Virus record (IMG/VR): IMGVR_UViG_3300019889_000024
Location: 1 to 42,561 of that record
Length of the DNA stretch: 42,561 bases
Reading direction: 5' to 3' (one strand)
From: a virus
Shown here: piece by piece, positions 143 to 42,561 of the stretch
Numbering within the stretch: position 1 is the stretch's first letter
How the letters are laid out: each line of letters begins with the position of its first letter
The notes under the pieces: generated by a model
Database searches by the model: none
What the model was told of the DNA's origin: nothing
What the model saw: the letters and a program-made list of their open reading frames with translations, nothing else
Translations under genes and position numbers: made by a program

Positions 143-378
143 GTGATGAACAGGCCGTCGCGGTATCGCCTTCGTCATTCTCTGGAGTCGAAGCCGGCGG
201 GGTCGCGGTGCCGGCGCCCGTGGTGCACGTCGACGGCCCTCAGCCGGTCGTCAACGTCGAGGTGAAGCCGCCCGATATCCGGGTCGAGGCCCCGGTGGTC
301 AATGGCGCACCAACGGATCCTCGAATACCTGTTTGCGCTCCGGGCGCCCATCATCAACCCAGAGGTAGAGGACGATGA
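1..378 (+). CDS. Portal protein, C-terminal part (continued from the right end of the window)
   Basis: This is the last 125 or so codons of the lambda-type portal gene that starts at 40959. Joining the two window ends through the terminal overlap gives one 612-residue reading frame. This part is a low-complexity tail: a Pro/Ala-rich stretch, then Val/Pro-rich repeats of the VVHVDGPQPVVNVEVKPPDI type. The last 27 or so residues are encoded, in a different frame, by a duplicated copy of the start of the downstream S49 protease gene (see 298-337). The in-frame ATG at 22 is an internal methionine (residue 495), not a start. Confidence 0.9.
   Translation, partial: ATRAEETMLHDGGDWEVKHEQRVKEEKLRKQGGLAPPAAPAAPAPPPGDEQAVAVSPSSFSGVEAGGVAVPAPVVHVDGPQPVVNVEVKPPDIRVEAPVVNGAPTDPRIPVCAPGAHHQPRGRGR
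298..337 (+). repeat. 40-bp duplication, copy 1 (portal end / S49 start)
   Basis: Bases 298-337 match 2557-2596 at 38 of 40 positions. In copy 2 this DNA starts the S49 protease gene (MAHPRILEYLFA). Here it ends the portal gene in another frame and also opens a 27-codon remnant beginning MAHQRILEYLFA. The two copies flank the 375-2540 cassette exactly. Confidence 0.9.
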
Positions 379-385
379 CCGCTAA
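302..385 (+). pseudogene. Duplicated 5' stub of the S49 protease gene
   Basis: ATG at 302 opens 27 codons whose first 12 residues match the real S49 protease start at 2561 except for one change (P to Q). It then diverges and stops at 385. It lies inside the portal 3' end and runs into the start of the next gene at 375. I read it as the leftover of a duplicated portal/protease gene overlap, not as a working gene. It might still be translated and couple the gene at 375. Confidence 0.6.
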
Positions 386-650
386 CGTATCAATCGCCAA
401 CAACAACGAGCGTGGGGCGTGGACCTATGCCGCCGGAACGAACGGAACCGTGGTCGTGGCGGCCGGAAAGCGGGTGATTGGGATCGCCGCCTATTCCACG
501 GCCGGCGGCACGCTGACTATCGATGGCGGTGATTCCGTGGTGATCCCTGCGGGCGCCGCTATCAGCGTCGAGCCCAAGGGAAACCTGGTAGCACCGACCA
601 TCGTTTTCTCCGCGGGCGTGACTTCTTATTTCGTTGAAACGGTGAACTGA
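375..650 (+). CDS. Small beta-rich virion-type protein, 91 aa
   Basis: Not recognised as a named family. The 91 residues are rich in Ala, Gly, Thr and Val with alternating hydrophobic residues, as in a small beta-sandwich, and have no signal peptide or membrane segment. Motifs include AAGKRVIGIAAY and GGTLTIDGGDSVVIPAG, the kind of short ligand-binding or decoration fold common in phage structural genes. It is the first gene of the cassette inserted between portal and protease and starts within a few bases of the portal stop. Role on the virion surface is inferred from neighbours only. Confidence 0.75.
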   Translation: MTANVSIANNNERGAWTYAAGTNGTVVVAAGKRVIGIAAYSTAGGTLTIDGGDSVVIPAGAAISVEPKGNLVAPTIVFSAGVTSYFVETVN

Positions 651-652
651 TT

Positions 653-751
653 ATGCCAGTCGCTTACCAAACCCCAGGCTCCGGTGTTTCCGGTTCAGTG
701 AGCAGCCCCGCTGTTAAACTCCTCAACGCCTACATGTTCGGAGGGCTGTAA
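653..751 (+). CDS. Small cassette peptide, 32 aa
   Basis: ATG at 653, two bases after the preceding stop, gives 32 residues (MPVAYQTPGSGVSGSV...) ending in a hydrophobic segment (LLNAYMFGGL). The next gene starts with GTG directly after its stop. The tight head-to-tail packing and same strand support translation. Function unknown. Confidence 0.5.
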   Translation: MPVAYQTPGSGVSGSVSSPAVKLLNAYMFGGL

Positions 752-1168
752 GTGGCCGCTAACACCTCCCCCATCTTCCCGCTCAGCCCCAGCATTCAAT
801 GGGGTGCCACGGCGCTGGCAACGGCCAACACCGCCAAGGACGGCACGGGCACGGTCTTGACCGCTTTCACCGCCGACGCCACCAACGGCTCGCGCCTCGA
901 TTACCTCAAGGTCCGGGCGATCGGATCCAACGTCGCGACGGTGCTGCGCGTATTCATCAACAATGGCGCGACCAATGCCACGGCGGGCAATAATGTGCTG
1001 TTCATGGAGCGCACCATCCCCGCGGCGACCCTCTCCGAGGTTGCCGAGCTGGCCGACACGTACATCCCGCTCGATATCAGCCTGCCGGCCGGGTACAAGG
1101 TTAACGTGACCATCGGGACGACGGTGGCGGCGGGTTTGATGGTTTCGGGCGTCGGCGGGCACTACTAA
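752..1168 (+). CDS. Beta-sandwich-like cassette protein, 138 aa
   Basis: GTG start at 752 abuts the previous stop. The 138 residues begin AANTSPIFPLSPSIQWG, followed by alternating hydrophobic strands (RLDYLKVRAIGSN, VLRVFINNGA, YKVNVTIGTTV). No cysteines or membrane segments. This pattern is familiar from small uncharacterised phage structural proteins but I cannot name the family. It lies in the inserted cassette immediately before the YadA-like repeat protein, so a role in the same surface structure is likely. The long reverse ORF across it is a shadow. Confidence 0.75.
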   Translation: MAANTSPIFPLSPSIQWGATALATANTAKDGTGTVLTAFTADATNGSRLDYLKVRAIGSNVATVLRVFINNGATNATAGNNVLFMERTIPAATLSEVAELADTYIPLDISLPAGYKVNVTIGTTVAAGLMVSGVGGHY

Positions 1169-1169
1169 G

Positions 1170-2267
1170 ATGTTCGCGGGAACCGCGAGAGATCGGCAAA
1201 ATTGCCGCGTTTATCCGATCGCGAACGCGGGTACGCGCATCGCACTCAAGGGCGATGATCCCGATTTCATCGTCCTCGAAGCCGTCAACACCAATTTTGA
1301 TTCAGCCTCGATAACGCTGCCCAACACCGCGCCGATCGGTAAGACGTTTTGCTTTGTTCTCACAGCGAATCCGCAGATACTTCCGGCGCTCACGACCCAC
1401 AGCGTTGCCATCAACGTCCCTGGCGAGCGCGTACTGCCAGCATTTAACTGGATACTACGAGCCGGACAAGAGGCTAGATTTATCTATACGCCTAACGGGT
1501 GGCTTACGCCGCGAGGGGTTAACAGCGGAACGGATGGGATTGCTTCTTCGTCCGGTATCGCCTTCGGCGAAGGATCAACCGCAGCCTCTCTTGGGATAGC
1601 GATCGGGCGTAGCGCAAGCGGTTACTCTAGCGGTGTTTCGATTGGTTATAATTCTGTCGGAAATATCAGCGGAGTGGGGGTCGGGCAAGCTGCTGCTGGG
1701 GCTACCAACGGCGTGGCACTTGGCCACACCGCGATCGCGACCATCAATGGGGTGGCAGTTGGGTTCCAAGCCAGCACAAACACCAAGGACGCGGCAGTCG
1801 CGCTCGGGTACAACTCCAAAGCCGAGCGTTACCGCGAGCTTGTCAAATCCGCAGACCGCGCCACCGTCTGCCTCCAGTCCTTTTCGATCCTCGACTGGTA
1901 CGGCGACACCGCCAACGCAACCCCTACTGAGATCCTGCTCGGTGGTACGGCGAGCCAGTTCGCAAACCTGCTGAACTCTTCGGCCTTCATGTTCAGGCTG
2001 AGCGCTATCGCGCGCAACAACGCGGATGATGTCAACGCCTGCTGGAGCCTGACGGGAGGCATTAAACGTGGTGCGGCAGCGGTAAACACCACACTCATAG
2101 GGATCGTTACCAAGACCATCATTGGCGCCGACGCGGGCGCCGCGACCTGGGATATCGACGCGACCGCCGACACCACGAACGGATCACTTAAAATCACCGT
2201 TACCGGCGAGGCCGCGAAGACGATCCGCTGGAATGTCCGTGGCGATATTTCAGAATTGAGGTTCTAG
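1170..2267 (+). CDS. Virion surface protein with YadA-like beta-roll repeats, 365 aa
   Basis: Residues about 120-220 carry six or seven 14-16-residue repeats of the form GVAIGxxSxAxxxG (SGIAFGEGSTAASLG, GIAIGRSASGYSSG, GVSIGYNSVGNISG, GVGVGQAAAGATNG, GVALGHTAIATING, GVAVGFQAST, AVALGYNSKA). This is the signature of the left-handed beta-roll head of trimeric autotransporter adhesins such as YadA. The N-terminal 110 residues form a beta-rich base and the last 140 residues form another beta-rich domain. In YadA this fold is an obligate trimer that binds host surfaces, so a trimeric receptor-binding or head-fibre role is inferred. Its placement inside the head gene module is unusual. Confidence 0.75.
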   Translation: MFAGTARDRQNCRVYPIANAGTRIALKGDDPDFIVLEAVNTNFDSASITLPNTAPIGKTFCFVLTANPQILPALTTHSVAINVPGERVLPAFNWILRAGQEARFIYTPNGWLTPRGVNSGTDGIASSSGIAFGEGSTAASLGIAIGRSASGYSSGVSIGYNSVGNISGVGVGQAAAGATNGVALGHTAIATINGVAVGFQASTNTKDAAVALGYNSKAERYRELVKSADRATVCLQSFSILDWYGDTANATPTEILLGGTASQFANLLNSSAFMFRLSAIARNNADDVNACWSLTGGIKRGAAAVNTTLIGIVTKTIIGADAGAATWDIDATADTTNGSLKITVTGEAAKTIRWNVRGDISELRF

Positions 2268-2270
2268 CCC

Positions 2271-2540
2271 ATGGCAATCCGTAAAAGCTGGCTAACCGCT
2301 CAAGGTCTCACCCTTCCCCAAGCCTACCTCCGGGTGACGTTCTTCTCCGGCAACACGAAGCACATTCAGTACAGCGTCCAGATCTGGAACAACGCCCAGG
2401 CGCGCAACGAGGAGCGCGCCATCTTCGAGGAGCAGAATTTCAGCTTCGAGTATCCACCCGGCGGCACCGGCGACATCGTGACTCGTTGTTACCAGCATCT
2501 GAAGTCGCTGCCCGAGTTCTCCGACGGTGTGGACGTGTAA
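2271..2540 (+). CDS. Cassette protein of unknown function, 89 aa
   Basis: ATG at 2271, three bases after the preceding stop. The 89-residue product has one apparent beta-rich domain (AYLRVTFFSGNTKHIQYSVQ) and an acidic C-terminal half ending in a short helix. Small proteins of this general look follow fibre genes in many siphophages, but I cannot assign a named family. It is the last gene of the inserted cassette; the 40-bp duplication begins 17 bases after its stop. Confidence 0.7.
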   Translation: MAIRKSWLTAQGLTLPQAYLRVTFFSGNTKHIQYSVQIWNNAQARNEERAIFEEQNFSFEYPPGGTGDIVTRCYQHLKSLPEFSDGVDV

Positions 2541-2556
2541 AGGCTCTGGAGCCCGA

Positions 2557-2596
2557 GTCAATGGCGCATCCACGGATCCTCGAATACCTGTTTGCG
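2557..2596 (+). repeat. 40-bp duplication, copy 2 (S49 start)
   Basis: Second copy of the 298-337 sequence. In the portal reading frame this copy still encodes a plausible portal end (VNGASTDPRIPVCEP and on to a stop at 2617-2619). This shows that portal and protease overlapped by about 60 bases before the cassette came in. Confidence 0.85.
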
Positions 2597-3928
2597 AACC
2601 ATTGGGCGATCCTGCCTGAGGTGCTGCAGACGATGCTCAGCATCGCCCAGGGCGAGAACGAATCGCCCGAGGCGGTGGCAGAGAGGCTGGGGCGGCCGCT
2701 TCAGAACACGCGCACCGTGATCAATCGTGATGGTGTGGCGGTGCTGCCCGTGGGCGGGCCCATCTTCCGTTACGCAAACATCCTGACGGAGATCAGCGGG
2801 GCTACCTCCGTCGAAGTGCTGGCGACCGACTTTCGCGCGGCGCTGGAGGATGCCGATATCCGAGGCATCGTGCTCGAAATCGATTCCCCGGGCGGCCAGA
2901 TCGCGGGGATCTCGGAGTTCGCCGATCAGGTTGCCGCCGCCGGCAAACCGACCGTGGCCTACATTTCCGACGTCGGCGCCTCAGCCGGCTACTGGATCGC
3001 GAGCGCCGCCGATCAGGTCATCATTCGCGACACTGCCGTGGCCGGATCGGTGGGGGTAGTTGCGACCTTGCGGCGCGACAAAAAGGACGGCGACCGGATC
3101 CAGATCGTCTCCTCGCAATCGCCACGGAAGCGCCTAGACCTCGACACGGAGGAAGGCCGCTCGGTGCTGCAAGCAGTGGTCGACGACATCGCCGACGTGT
3201 TCATCGCCCGGGTCGCATCGTATCGTGGCGTGAGCGCCGAGCACGTCCTGGAGCACTTCGGACAGGGGGGCCTCTTGGTCGGGCGCCACGCCGTGAGCGC
3301 GGGGCTGGCCGATGGGCTAGGATCTTTGGAATCCATCATCGCCGGCCTGGCCGGTAAAGCACTTGGAGGCAAGAGCACCATGAGAAAGACTGAACCGGCG
3401 ACAGCCGCACAACCCGCTATCCTCGACCGCGACACCTTAGAGGCCGAGCATCCCGAGCTATTCGCCACGATCGTCGAAGAGGGGCGGGCCGTCGCTTTCG
3501 GGCTGGGAGAGACGAAAGGAAGGGCCGAAGGCTACCGCGAGGGCGCAGAAGAGGAGCGAGCCCGCATCAAGGCCGTGAAAGCGGTTTTGCTCCGGGGACA
3601 CGAGGATCTTATCGAGCGCCTGATGTTCGATGGCGTCACTGGTGGGCCCGAGGCCGCGGCCCTGGTGATCGAGGCTGAGAAAAGCAAACACGTCTTGCAC
3701 CTGAAAGCCATCAAAGACGACGCGCCGCGGCCCGTGACGCACGCCGTGGCGCCCGAGCAGGAGGCGGCTGCCGCTGCCGATGCCGCGCTGCCGCTCGAAG
3801 ATCGCTGCAAGCGCGAGTGGGATGGCGATCCGAAGCTGCGGACCGAGTTCGGCGACTCTTACGGGAGCTATCTGGCCTTCCGCAAGGCCGACGAGAAGGG
3901 ACGCGTGAAGATATTGCGCCGGGCCTGA
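2561..3928 (+). CDS. S49-family head maturation protease fused to scaffold (lambda gpC-like), 455 aa
   Basis: Start chosen at ATG 2561 (MAHPRILEYL), because the longer upstream extension lies in duplicated, non-conserved sequence. Residues about 55-270 form the ClpP/S49 fold: strands VLPVGGPI and GIVLEIDSPGG (101-112), then DVGASAGYWIASAAD (137-151) with the likely nucleophile Ser141, and a later Lys near 190 as candidate base. The C-terminal 180 residues are charged, helical and coiled-coil-like, typical of a scaffold. In lambda, gpC and the nested Nu3 scaffold guide prohead assembly and are processed away. Portal lies upstream, decoration and capsid genes downstream. Confidence 0.9.
   Translation: MAHPRILEYLFANHWAILPEVLQTMLSIAQGENESPEAVAERLGRPLQNTRTVINRDGVAVLPVGGPIFRYANILTEISGATSVEVLATDFRAALEDADIRGIVLEIDSPGGQIAGISEFADQVAAAGKPTVAYISDVGASAGYWIASAADQVIIRDTAVAGSVGVVATLRRDKKDGDRIQIVSSQSPRKRLDLDTEEGRSVLQAVVDDIADVFIARVASYRGVSAEHVLEHFGQGGLLVGRHAVSAGLADGLGSLESIIAGLAGKALGGKSTMRKTEPATAAQPAILDRDTLEAEHPELFATIVEEGRAVAFGLGETKGRAEGYREGAEEERARIKAVKAVLLRGHEDLIERLMFDGVTGGPEAAALVIEAEKSKHVLHLKAIKDDAPRPVTHAVAPEQEAAAAADAALPLEDRCKREWDGDPKLRTEFGDSYGSYLAFRKADEKGRVKILRRA
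3380..3928 (+). CDS. Nested head scaffold protein (Nu3-like), 182 aa
   Basis: An in-frame ATG at 3380 follows a purine-rich ribosome-binding site (TTGGAGGC, about 9 bases upstream), exactly where the protease domain ends and the charged helical part begins (MRKTEPATAAQP). Independent translation from here would give a 182-residue scaffold, as with lambda Nu3 inside C. The sequence is rich in Ala, Glu and Lys with long helices (EEERARIKAVKAVLL, EAAALVIEAEKSKHVLH). The nested start is an inference from lambda and from the local ribosome-binding site. Confidence 0.65.
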   Translation: MRKTEPATAAQPAILDRDTLEAEHPELFATIVEEGRAVAFGLGETKGRAEGYREGAEEERARIKAVKAVLLRGHEDLIERLMFDGVTGGPEAAALVIEAEKSKHVLHLKAIKDDAPRPVTHAVAPEQEAAAAADAALPLEDRCKREWDGDPKLRTEFGDSYGSYLAFRKADEKGRVKILRRA

Positions 3929-4544: not shown

Positions 4545-5486
4545 ATGGGTGCGAAAACACTGGGGAGCCGAGCCATCATCGGCGAGTTCTACATGCGGTT
4601 GGAGCAGGACCTCGGCGCAACGTGGGTGCCGCAGGTATCGATGCTCTTCCAATCCGATCAGGAGTCGGAGACCTACCCGTGGCTCGGCATGGCGCCGGCA
4701 ATGCGGGAGTGGATTGGGGGGCGGCAGGCGAAGGGATTCCGGGAGAACGGGATCACCATCACCAACAAGAAATATGAGTCCACGCTGGAGGTCCCGGTCG
4801 ATTGGATGCGCCGCGACAAGACCGGGCAAATCATGGTTCGGATCGCCGAGCAGACCGAACGCGCAAACGCGCATTGGGCGAAGCTTCTGAACCAGCTCAT
4901 CCTCGATGGCGAAGCTACGGTCTGTTACGACGGCCAGTTCTTCTTCGATACCGATCACTCGGAGGGGGATTCTGGCACGCAGGACAACGACATCGCCGTC
5001 GATATCACCACGACTACCGCACCCACGACGGGCGAGATGGAAACGGCCATCATGAGGGCGATCCAGCAGATCATTTCGTTCAAAGATGATCAAGGGGAGC
5101 CGATGAACGAGGCCGCCCAGAAGTTCCTGGTCATGGTTCCGGTGCCGTTCATGTCGGCCGCGGCGGCGGCGCTCGGTAGTAGCATCATCGTCGATGCCTC
5201 GACCTCACGGTCGAATACGATCCTTACGCTCTCCTCGATGTCCGGGTTTCAGGTCGCGCTGGCGGTTTCCCCGCGGCTCACCTGGACCACGAAGTTCGCG
5301 GTATACCGTGCCGATGGACAGTTGGCGGCCTTCATCCGGCAGGAAGAAGAAGACATCACGGTCGATGCGATTGCGGATGGTTCCGAGGAAGAATTTAAGA
5401 ACGATCGACACCTATACGGCATTAAGGCGATCCGCAATGTGGGCTATGGCTATTGGCAGAAGGCGTGCCTGGTGACGTTCACCTGA
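4545..5486 (+). CDS. Major capsid protein, Mu gpT-like, 313 aa
   Basis: The protein builds the icosahedral head. It resembles the Mu gpT family of HK97-fold capsid proteins: an N-terminal segment with a WLGMAPAMREWIGGRQ motif (about residues 45-60), TITNKKYESTLEVPVDWMRRD, a central FFDTDHSEGDSG, and a C-terminal YGIKAIRNVGYGYWQKA. The length of 313 fits the family (about 300). It is preceded by an AGAGGATCA ribosome-binding site and follows the cement gene. Combining a Mu-type capsid protein with a lambda-type terminase, portal and protease is a known mosaic pattern. Confidence 0.9.
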   Translation: MGAKTLGSRAIIGEFYMRLEQDLGATWVPQVSMLFQSDQESETYPWLGMAPAMREWIGGRQAKGFRENGITITNKKYESTLEVPVDWMRRDKTGQIMVRIAEQTERANAHWAKLLNQLILDGEATVCYDGQFFFDTDHSEGDSGTQDNDIAVDITTTTAPTTGEMETAIMRAIQQIISFKDDQGEPMNEAAQKFLVMVPVPFMSAAAAALGSSIIVDASTSRSNTILTLSSMSGFQVALAVSPRLTWTTKFAVYRADGQLAAFIRQEEEDITVDAIADGSEEEFKNDRHLYGIKAIRNVGYGYWQKACLVTFT

Positions 5487-5527
5487 TTTTCGTGCCCGCC
5501 GTCATCATCCTTCAGGCAATCACCTAA

Positions 5528-5806
5528 ATGAGCAACTATAGAGTCACCGAAGCCTCGATCAATATCCACGCGGGCGTCCTGCTCCTGGACCCTTCCCAGG
5601 CCGAGCCTCGCAAGCACCGGCTTACCGCGCTCGGAGGCAACCGCTATGACGTCACCGATCCGCCGGTGACCTTCAAGCGCGGAGAGGTATTCGAACTGGA
5701 GGGGGAGCTGCCGAAAGCGCTGGTGCAATCTGTCGAGCAGGCCGAGGGGTTTCCCAAGGTAAAGACGTGGAACCCAAAGCCGGTGGAGGCGAGACGAAAG
5801 AAATAA
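5528..5806 (+). CDS. Head-region protein, 92 aa
   Basis: Unrecognised. The 92 residues begin MSNYRVTEASINIHAG and contain a beta-rich middle (LTALGGNRYDVTDPPVTFKRGEVF) and a basic C-terminus (EARRKK). It sits between the capsid gene and the FII-like joiner. In lambda that slot is occupied by FI, a packaging accessory protein, but no sequence similarity to FI is evident. Only one base separates it from the next gene. Confidence 0.7.
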   Translation: MSNYRVTEASINIHAGVLLLDPSQAEPRKHRLTALGGNRYDVTDPPVTFKRGEVFELEGELPKALVQSVEQAEGFPKVKTWNPKPVEARRKK

Positions 5807-5807
5807 C

Positions 5808-6086
5808 ATGGCCTTCACCGAGGACCTCGACGCCTTCTTTTCCGACGACGACTTTGCGGTCGCCGTCACCTGGGGGGCGCAAACGGCGACCGGGATCCTC
5901 AACGCGCCGGACGAGACGGCGGGCGGTGCGCTCTCGCGCGAGTACCTGCTCATCTACCCGGTCACCAAGCTGGTCGGGCTTGCGACGGGGCAGGCGCTTA
6001 CGGTGGACGGGAGCGCCTACACGGTGCGCGACGTGCGGGCTACTGATGACGGGAAGATCATGAACGCGACGCTCTCGAAGAACTGA
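5808..6086 (+). CDS. Head-tail joining protein, lambda FII-like, 92 aa
   Basis: A compact 92-residue protein beginning MAFTEDLDAFFSDDDFAV, with VTWGAQTATGILNAPDE and a C-terminal strand pair (GSAYTVRDVRATDDGKIMNATL). This matches the usual look of the gpFII / head-tail attachment family: acidic start, a small beta barrel, and a closing DGxxxxATL strand. In lambda FII forms the ring that receives the tail. The gene follows capsid genes and precedes tail genes, as expected. Confidence 0.8.
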   Translation: MAFTEDLDAFFSDDDFAVAVTWGAQTATGILNAPDETAGGALSREYLLIYPVTKLVGLATGQALTVDGSAYTVRDVRATDDGKIMNATLSKN

Positions 6087-40958: not shown

Positions 40959-42561
40959 ATGCGCGAAGTCCCCCGCGAAACCGGCCTGCCGGCGGCGCTT
41001 CGTTCGCTCCGCCCCAACCTGGTGGACCGTGCGATCTCGTACTTCGACCCCGTAAAGGGTCTGGAGCGCTACCGCGCCCGCGCCATGCAGCTCACGGCCG
41101 AGAGCTACATCGGGGCGTCGAAGACGCGGCGCTCCATGACCGGCTGGCTCACGCGCCCGAAGTCGGCCGACGGCGATACGCTCCTGGAGCTGCCGGAGCT
41201 CCGCACCCGCTCGCGGGACCTGGAGCGGAATGCGCCCATCGCGACCGGCGCGCTTTCCACGGTCAGGACCAAGGTGGTCGGCACCGGGCTCGCGCTGCAA
41301 TCGAGGGTAAACCGGAAGGTCCTCGGGATATCCGAAGAGGAGGCGTCGGAGTGGCAGCGGCGGACCGAGATGGAGTGGACGCTCTGGGCCGAATCTCCGG
41401 ACTGCGATCTCACGCGGCAACAGAATTTCTATGGCCTGCAGGACCTCGCGTTCCGCTCGGCGCTGGCGTCGGGCGACGTCTTGGTCCTCATGCCCTATCT
41501 CTTGCGCTCGAGCGGGCCCTACGGCCTGAAGCTCCAGCTCATCGAGGCCGATCGGATGGCCAACCCGGCGAACAAGCGCGATACGCCCGAGCTCGCGAGC
41601 GGCGTCGAGATGGACAAGGACGGTGCGCCGATCGCGTACCACGTCCTCAAGCAGCACCCCGGTGGCATAGGCCGGCTGGCGGGTGGCGAGTTAGATAGGG
41701 TGCCAGCCTTTGGCGCCCAGACCGGCCGTCGCAACGCCATCCACCTGTACCAGCGGTCGCGACCTGGTCAGTCGCGCGGGGTGCCGTACCTCGCGCCGGT
41801 CATCGAGACCCTCAAGCAGCTCGACCGCTACACCGAGGCCGAGATCGCCGCGGCCGTGGTGGCAGGGCTCTTCGCGGTGTTCGTCAAGAGCGAAGGCGAC
41901 GGCCTCTCGCCGCTCGAATCCGCCACTCTCGGCATCACTCCGGCGAGCGGCGGCGACACGCCGCAGGCGGGCTGGGACGGCAAGCTGTCCGCCGGGCTGG
42001 TGGCGGATCTGCGCCCGGGCGAGGACATCGTTTCCGCGAACCCGGGCAGGCCGAACGCCGCGTTCGATCCGTTCATGGTCTCGATCCTGCGGCAAGTCGG
42101 CATGGCGCTGGAGCTGCCCTACGAGGTCCTCATCAAGCATTTCCAGTCGTCGTACTCAGCCGCCCGTGCCGCGCTGCTCGAGGCATGGGCACACTTCCGG
42201 TGTCGGCGCAGTTGGCTCGCTACCTATCTCTGCCAGCCCATCTACGAGGTCTGGATCGAGGAGGCAATTGCGCTGGGCCGCATCGTCGCCCCCGGCTTCT
42301 TCTTCGATCCGCTCGTCCGCCATGCCTGGCTTGGCTGCCAGTGGGTAGGTGACGGTCCGGGCTCCATCGATCCGCTCAAGGAGGTCACCGCCGCGCGCGA
42401 GCGGGTGGCGCTCACGATCTCGACGCTGGCCGAAGAGACCATGTTGCACGACGGCGGCGATTGGGAGGTGAAGCACGAGCAGCGCGTCAAGGAGGAGAAG
42501 TTGCGCAAGCAGGGCGGGCTCGCTCCTCCCGCCGCGCCGGCAGCGCCCGCGCCACCGCCTG
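40959..42561 (+). CDS. Portal protein, lambda gpB family, N-terminal part (runs off the window)
   Basis: ATG 40959 (MREVPRETGLPAALRSLRPN) opens a frame with no stop before the window end, continuing at bases 1-378 to give 612 residues. It follows the lambda-type portal family: AISYFDPVKGLERYRARAMQ, LRTRSRDLERNAPIATGALS, LKLQLIEADRMANPANK, YHVLKQHP, LYQRSRPGQSRGVPYLAPVI, PNAAFDPFMVSILRQVGMAL, ELPYEVLIKHFQSSYSAARA, and AHFRCRRSWLATYLCQPIYE. It forms the dodecameric ring at the packaging vertex. The protease gene would follow directly but for the inserted cassette. Confidence 0.95.
   Translation, partial: MREVPRETGLPAALRSLRPNLVDRAISYFDPVKGLERYRARAMQLTAESYIGASKTRRSMTGWLTRPKSADGDTLLELPELRTRSRDLERNAPIATGALSTVRTKVVGTGLALQSRVNRKVLGISEEEASEWQRRTEMEWTLWAESPDCDLTRQQNFYGLQDLAFRSALASGDVLVLMPYLLRSSGPYGLKLQLIEADRMANPANKRDTPELASGVEMDKDGAPIAYHVLKQHPGGIGRLAGGELDRVPAFGAQTGRRNAIHLYQRSRPGQSRGVPYLAPVIETLKQLDRYTEAEIAAAVVAGLFAVFVKSEGDGLSPLESATLGITPASGGDTPQAGWDGKLSAGLVADLRPGEDIVSANPGRPNAAFDPFMVSILRQVGMALELPYEVLIKHFQSSYSAARAALLEAWAHFRCRRSWLATYLCQPIYEVWIEEAIALGRIVAPGFFFDPLVRHAWLGCQWVGDGPGSIDPLKEVTAARERVALTISTLAEETMLHDGGDWEVKHEQRVKEEKLRKQGGLAPPAAPAAPAPPP
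42421..42561. repeat. Right copy of contig-terminal overlap
   Basis: The same 141 bases as positions 2-142, with two mismatches (42427 and 42554), in frame within the portal gene. Removing one copy leaves a 42,419-bp circular map. Confidence 0.9.

Follow-up and report, generated by a model that had tools for sequence, protein, structure and literature searches.

Portal, protease and the genes between them

The window, by which we mean the whole stretch of 42,561 nucleotides analysed here, is a virus contig that starts and finishes with the same 142 bp, apart from 3 mismatches, all near the outer ends. Through this overlap (1-142 and 42420-42561), the seemingly linear contig is effectively a complete circular genome of ~42.4 kb, with the contig break ~155 bp away from the left copy of the repeat described below, inside the portal gene. 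Because the record is effectively circular, the portal ORF is complete across its ends: on the plus strand, it runs from 40959 to 42419 and continues from 1 to 378. Its 5' part extends in the record over 40959-42561, where the last 142 bp repeat the first 142 bp. The S49 head maturation protease gene (2561-3928, plus strand) matches Pfam PF01343, with phrog_53 aligned from residue 1, and is followed on its 3' side by genes for a decoration protein and then a Mu gpT-like major capsid protein.

Between these two genes lies an inserted stretch (338-2556, plus strand) that comprises a leader with the ribosome-binding-like sequence AGAGGTAGAGG, five ORFs in the same orientation (g1 to g5) and a ribosome-binding-like GGAG for the protease. 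The g1 start is located inside the portal stop (ATGA, with the portal TGA at 376-378), and the 20 bp from the end of g5 to the protease ATG contain the GGAG. As the portal stop overlaps the g1 start, we propose that the cassette is translated within the head operon. No transposase, integrase or recombinase was matched among the five inserted ORFs, and no terminal inverted repeats were found for the inserted stretch. A search for an own promoter, made with the sigma-70 consensus only, gave one promoter-like site inside g4, with no excess over shuffles, and 3 terminator-like sites were counted against 2.8 expected. The GC content of the cassette is 59.9%, with 62.4% for the genome and 79 of 807 GC windows as low or lower. 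The cassette is therefore within the genome range, and the case for its foreign origin rests on homologues and not on composition.

The first ORF, g1 (375-650, 91 aa), is predicted to encode a small Gly/Ala/Val-rich beta protein for which no family was found. The short g2 (653-751, 32 aa) ends in NAYMFGGL. Elsewhere, g3 homologues are preceded by fibre-type genes, whose C-terminal tail g2 matches; hydrophobic endings such as YAYKNFGGAL are frequent in the protein encoded immediately before g3. This resemblance suggests that g2 is probably not an ordinary gene but the surviving C-terminal end (YxxFGGL) of a donor fibre gene. If g2 is indeed a broken fibre-gene end, a recombination junction would be placed between g1 and g2.

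The g3 product (752-1168, 138 aa) is predicted to be a jelly-roll-like virion protein. Its model is confident and all-beta (pLDDT 92.8), and the best Foldseek matches are jelly-roll and TNF-like folds, including the PM2 spike P1 and a phage pentameric capsid protein, with TM values of about 0.3-0.5 and none below an E value of 1e-3. The next gene, g4 (1170-2267, 365 aa), encodes a putative fibre whose middle part is a YadA/UspA1-like beta-roll and whose C-terminal domain is conserved. By profile, this middle part carries the same beta-roll repeat as the heads of the trimeric adhesins YadA (1p9h) and UspA1 (3ntn and 3pr7), at E values of 7e-4 to 1.2e-3. Unlike in these adhesins, no autotransporter anchor or stalk was recognised in g4, which lies in a phage head operon and has its own N- and C-terminal domains. 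The single-chain model of g4 was poor (pLDDT 56.5) and was set aside as evidence. The last ORF, g5 (2271-2540, 89 aa), encodes a homologue of PHROG 18037. No relatives of g1, g4 or g5 were found in the phage collection, and none of g4 in plasmids. Judging from these profile and model similarities, the cassette most likely represents a module for an appendage (fibre or spike), probably specifying virion surface fibres.

The 40-bp direct repeat

The first-pass annotation had reported that 40 bp at 298-337 and 2557-2596 match at 38 positions. Our analysis confirmed this direct repeat, with a spacing of 2259 and a self-search E value of 4.4e-12, as the sole such pair in the whole window. A 23-nt core of the repeat, with up to 3 mismatches allowed, occurs at only 2 sites in the window where shuffles expect 0, and a 20-mer core had 0 exact matches in 2.9 million viral contigs, which rules out the widespread site that the same annotation had considered. 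The repeat stops abruptly at both ends: no significant alignment was obtained over the 60 bp upstream or the 65 bp downstream, and the similarity downstream is no better than that of shuffles (191 of 2000 as good). A gapped extension past base 337 ('APIINPEV' vs 'WAILPEV') was not significant and was rejected. A P/Q residue difference, considered as a sign of a drifted copy, was also dropped, as relatives have both residues (P in L009 and Q in L177).

The left copy (298-337, plus strand) is part of the portal C-terminus and at the same time a dead protease start (ATG 302): in the protease frame, it reads MAHQRILEYLFALRAPIINPEVEDDDR followed by a stop, that is, a dead 27-codon start. The right copy (2557-2596, plus strand) begins 4 nt before ATG 2561 and holds the functional S49 protease start. 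The earlier statement that this copy still encodes a portal end in one frame and the protease start in another was borne out by reading the frames, as the portal frame gives ...VNGASTDPRIPVCEPLGDPA and then a stop, being open to TGA 2617-2619, which is 59 nt past the protease ATG. The portal sequence past base 337, about its last 13 residues, is new.

The border and the g3-g4-g5 module in other phages

Single-sequence scans with the window protease gave no match in viral or genome contigs, and alignments were needed to find relatives. Profile searches gathered ~235 loci with portal and/or protease, and the border could be measured in 210. In 162 of these loci, the distance from one gene to the other is between -45 and +60 nt, a 4-nt overlap being the commonest arrangement, whereas 25 loci have more than 400 bp between portal and protease, a count that includes the window and two contigs seen twice. 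Overlaps of 8-92 nt were present in 21 of the 112 non-redundant cassette-free loci, all in phase 2, which is also the phase of the 59-nt overlap proposed for the window. This agreement weakly supports an ancestral 59-nt overlap, as the 4-nt ATGA type is the sole alternative phase. In the nearest cassette-free relatives, L090 and L092 (portals 58 and 55% identical), the genes are ~10 bp or more apart and do not overlap, so that the 59-nt ancestral overlap is something we infer and do not observe. No close relative with an empty site was found, the best portals reaching at most 60% identity and the best proteases about 50-58%. A portal/protease overlap of 59 nt in the ancestry of the window is plausible.

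With an insert scored as present at >=300 bp, the insert state needs 17 changes on a FastTree tree of 136 portal rows, of which at least 13 are forced by well supported branches. As the state changes at least 13 times, the portal/protease border is, on this tree, a recurrent insertion site. Even near-identical portals differ in insert state (L182 with an insert, L181 without), and the nearest relatives of the window by portal (L087, L088 and L089) also have inserts at the border. The contents are mostly unrelated between loci: fibre or hydrolase-like virion genes were inserted in L007, L087, L094, L100 and L106, and other inserts carry a Rha regulator (L069), a DNA methylase (L016), an APH-like kinase (L182) or a YfbU protein (L191). 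The insert of L035 (2423-2944) encodes a signal-peptide-like protein in which the repeat YGYNAHGDYVPVA occurs several times, and ORFs in the insert region of L177 (2907-3460) have long Arg/Ser/Ala-rich simple repeats. Upstream of the protease, L156, L160 and L162 have in common an intergenic sequence of the form TTTGCCCTATTTGAAAC...TTTTGCGAAAGTCA, possibly a terminator or regulatory element.

The long flanking repeat was particular to the window among the 26 inserts compared, with a score of 34 against a maximum of 14 for the null, which consisted of mismatched left and right borders. Beyond the window and, in register, L069, no general flanking repeat was found in these 26 inserts, nor were any ends common to independent inserts. 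The Rha insert of L069 is bordered on each side by 14 bp that copy the ATGA junction exactly (1085-1098 and 1849-1862), and 14 identical bases in the fixed stop/start register were reached by 0 of 4316 mismatched pairs. This copy is only suggestive of a border duplication because of the alanine-rich GCCGCCGC tail. The pair L181 and L182 offers a case of another kind: the empty L181 has a 29-nt overlap (border 5962-5978), and L182 carries a 1-kb APH-like insert (4927-5978), its portal having lost the ~21 last codons of the L181-type end and gained a new end, with the overlap not duplicated. This insertion without duplication indicates that an insert can be fitted in several ways, duplication of the border being one of them.

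Homologues of g3, g4 and g5 were found in the same order in the IMG/VR contig L244, with 86, 67 and 66% amino-acid identity, respectively, and with 72.6% DNA identity to positions 770-2521 of the window over about 1.77 kb. This contig is P22-like (P22 portal, scaffold and P22 coat), and the module is located between its portal and scaffold genes. A GIY-YIG/NUMOD-like homing endonuclease ORF lies at 9933-10772 of L244, just 3' of the P22-like coat gene. More distant g3-g4-g5 copies, again in the same order, occur in L293, between an SU10-type portal and scaffold/MCP, and in L319/L320, among other genes. The modules of L244 and L293 resemble that of the window in having the same genes in the same order, downstream of the portal and before scaffold/coat, but their portal, scaffold and coat belong to other families and the neighbours upstream of g3 are different. 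In every module copy seen, g5 is directly 3' of the g4 gene. Homologues of g3 are present in at least 80 diverse phage contigs, many beside fibre or head genes, and also in Rhodobacter phages, beside a tail gene cluster. From these gene neighbourhoods, g3-g4-g5 look like a mobile appendage module made up of a jelly-roll protein, a YadA-like beta-roll fibre and a small partner.

Origin of the cassette

The first-pass annotation had proposed that the cassette was inserted between portal and protease. This is supported: cassette-free relatives are numerous and normally have the genes adjacent, as counted above, the core of the cassette is transferable, and the repeat is not widespread. Other parts of that description have to be narrowed. 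The ancestral overlap of ~60 nt falls within the size range and phase seen in the family, but is absent in L090 and L092. Its duplication by the cassette is clear for 40 bp in the window and is not general, being long in 1 of the 26 inserts, 14 bp in L069 and lacking in L182/L181. Of the two flanking genes said to have stayed intact, the protease kept a complete frame, whereas the portal had its ~13 last residues replaced. The insertion was not 'traceless' either, as the repeat itself is a trace and the portal end was altered.

The model we favour, with a probability of about two in three, is a staggered illegitimate recombination of an appendage module into an adjacent, probably overlapping, portal/S49 protease pair, the product being kept by selection. 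In the ancestor, portal and protease would have been directly adjacent, with an overlap of probably ~59 nt. The g3-g4-g5 module, with g1 and the remnant g2 in front, would have been gained through an illegitimate recombination or a template switch. On the left, the junction would fall at base 337, 36 nt into the protease gene; on the right, synthesis or joining would have resumed at base 2557, 4 nt short of the protease ATG, so that a stagger of 40 bp would have produced the duplicated protease start. The protease would have kept its complete frame behind a cassette-borne ribosome-binding site, and the portal would have been kept up to the old overlap, acquiring then a new short tail and a stop overlapping the g1 start (ATGA). 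With such a stagger, the protease would survive only if the return is at or before its ATG, while the portal needs merely a stop. The duplication may then have survived through selection for an intact protease together with a tolerant portal tail, and not through dedicated insertion machinery.

The same topology would result from a Campbell-type or homologous single crossover, in which cassette-bearing circular or concatemeric DNA recombined through the common protease start. The repeats would then come from two parent phages and the two substitutions between the copies could be parental differences; donors of such an arrangement exist, as L087, L088 and L089 carry inserts at the border. We consider this unlikely, as the donor must have been ~95% identical at the protease start, where the sampled relatives differ strongly, and the other inserts are without such long repeats. 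Less probable still is a repeat formed later than the insertion, the portal end having been lost or rearranged and the nearby protease start copied onto the portal with no ancestral overlap. The lack of a long overlap in the nearest cassette-free relatives and the variability of portal tails, replaced in L182 vs L181, would fit such a history, but an extra event is required and overlaps of the needed phase and size range do exist in the family.

Flanking direct repeats at a recurrent site could also evoke a transposon-like or site-specific insertion with target-site duplication. This is very improbable, as the cassette lacks terminal inverted repeats as well as a transposase or recombinase gene, ordinary target duplications are shorter than 40 bp, and most other inserts have neither repeats nor common ends. 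Hardly any weight can be given to a role of the repeat in binding, packaging or regulation that has nothing to do with insertion, or to an error of the assembly, even if the contig was broken within the portal gene at 155 bp from the left copy: there are two copies only, both exactly at portal/protease gene borders, the 20-mer core is absent from viral contigs, and the copies differ at two bases and in their flanks and so are not one collapsed sequence.

Staggered recombination into the head operon brings to mind phage morons, accessory genes inserted by nonhomologous recombination (Hendrix-type model). As with morons, the extra genes of the window sit between genes that are adjacent in relatives, the flanking genes are functional and the contents differ between relatives. 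Unlike morons, the cassette has no own promoter or terminator that we could detect, consists of co-oriented virion genes of which the first has its start overlapping the portal stop, and has on either side a copy of the neighbouring gene's start, duplicated over 40 bp. The RcGTA head spikes and phage head fibres (PMC7296036, PMC12796354) are accessory virion appendages with which the putative appendage module of the window may be compared. In the open literature, to which our search was restricted (subscription papers lay outside it), no paper on this insertion site or on the junction duplication was found.

Tentatively, one could imagine that a large phage group exchanges its appendage modules preferentially at the border between portal and maturation protease, and that junction duplications (40 bp here, 14 bp in L069) form a readable scar that would date and polarise swaps, including those between unrelated head modules. 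If so, insertions could leave a duplicated border because the genes there often overlap. The window provides a concrete case of an accessory virion module entering a packed head operon without killing either neighbour, at a gene border that can now be pinpointed as repeatedly used for module entry in a large phage group. The presence of a common module in phages with other head families indicates that appendage genes are transferred block-wise between virion types, and that such a block can be inserted right after the portal gene. One predictable position thereby becomes available for testing how accessory virion genes evolve.
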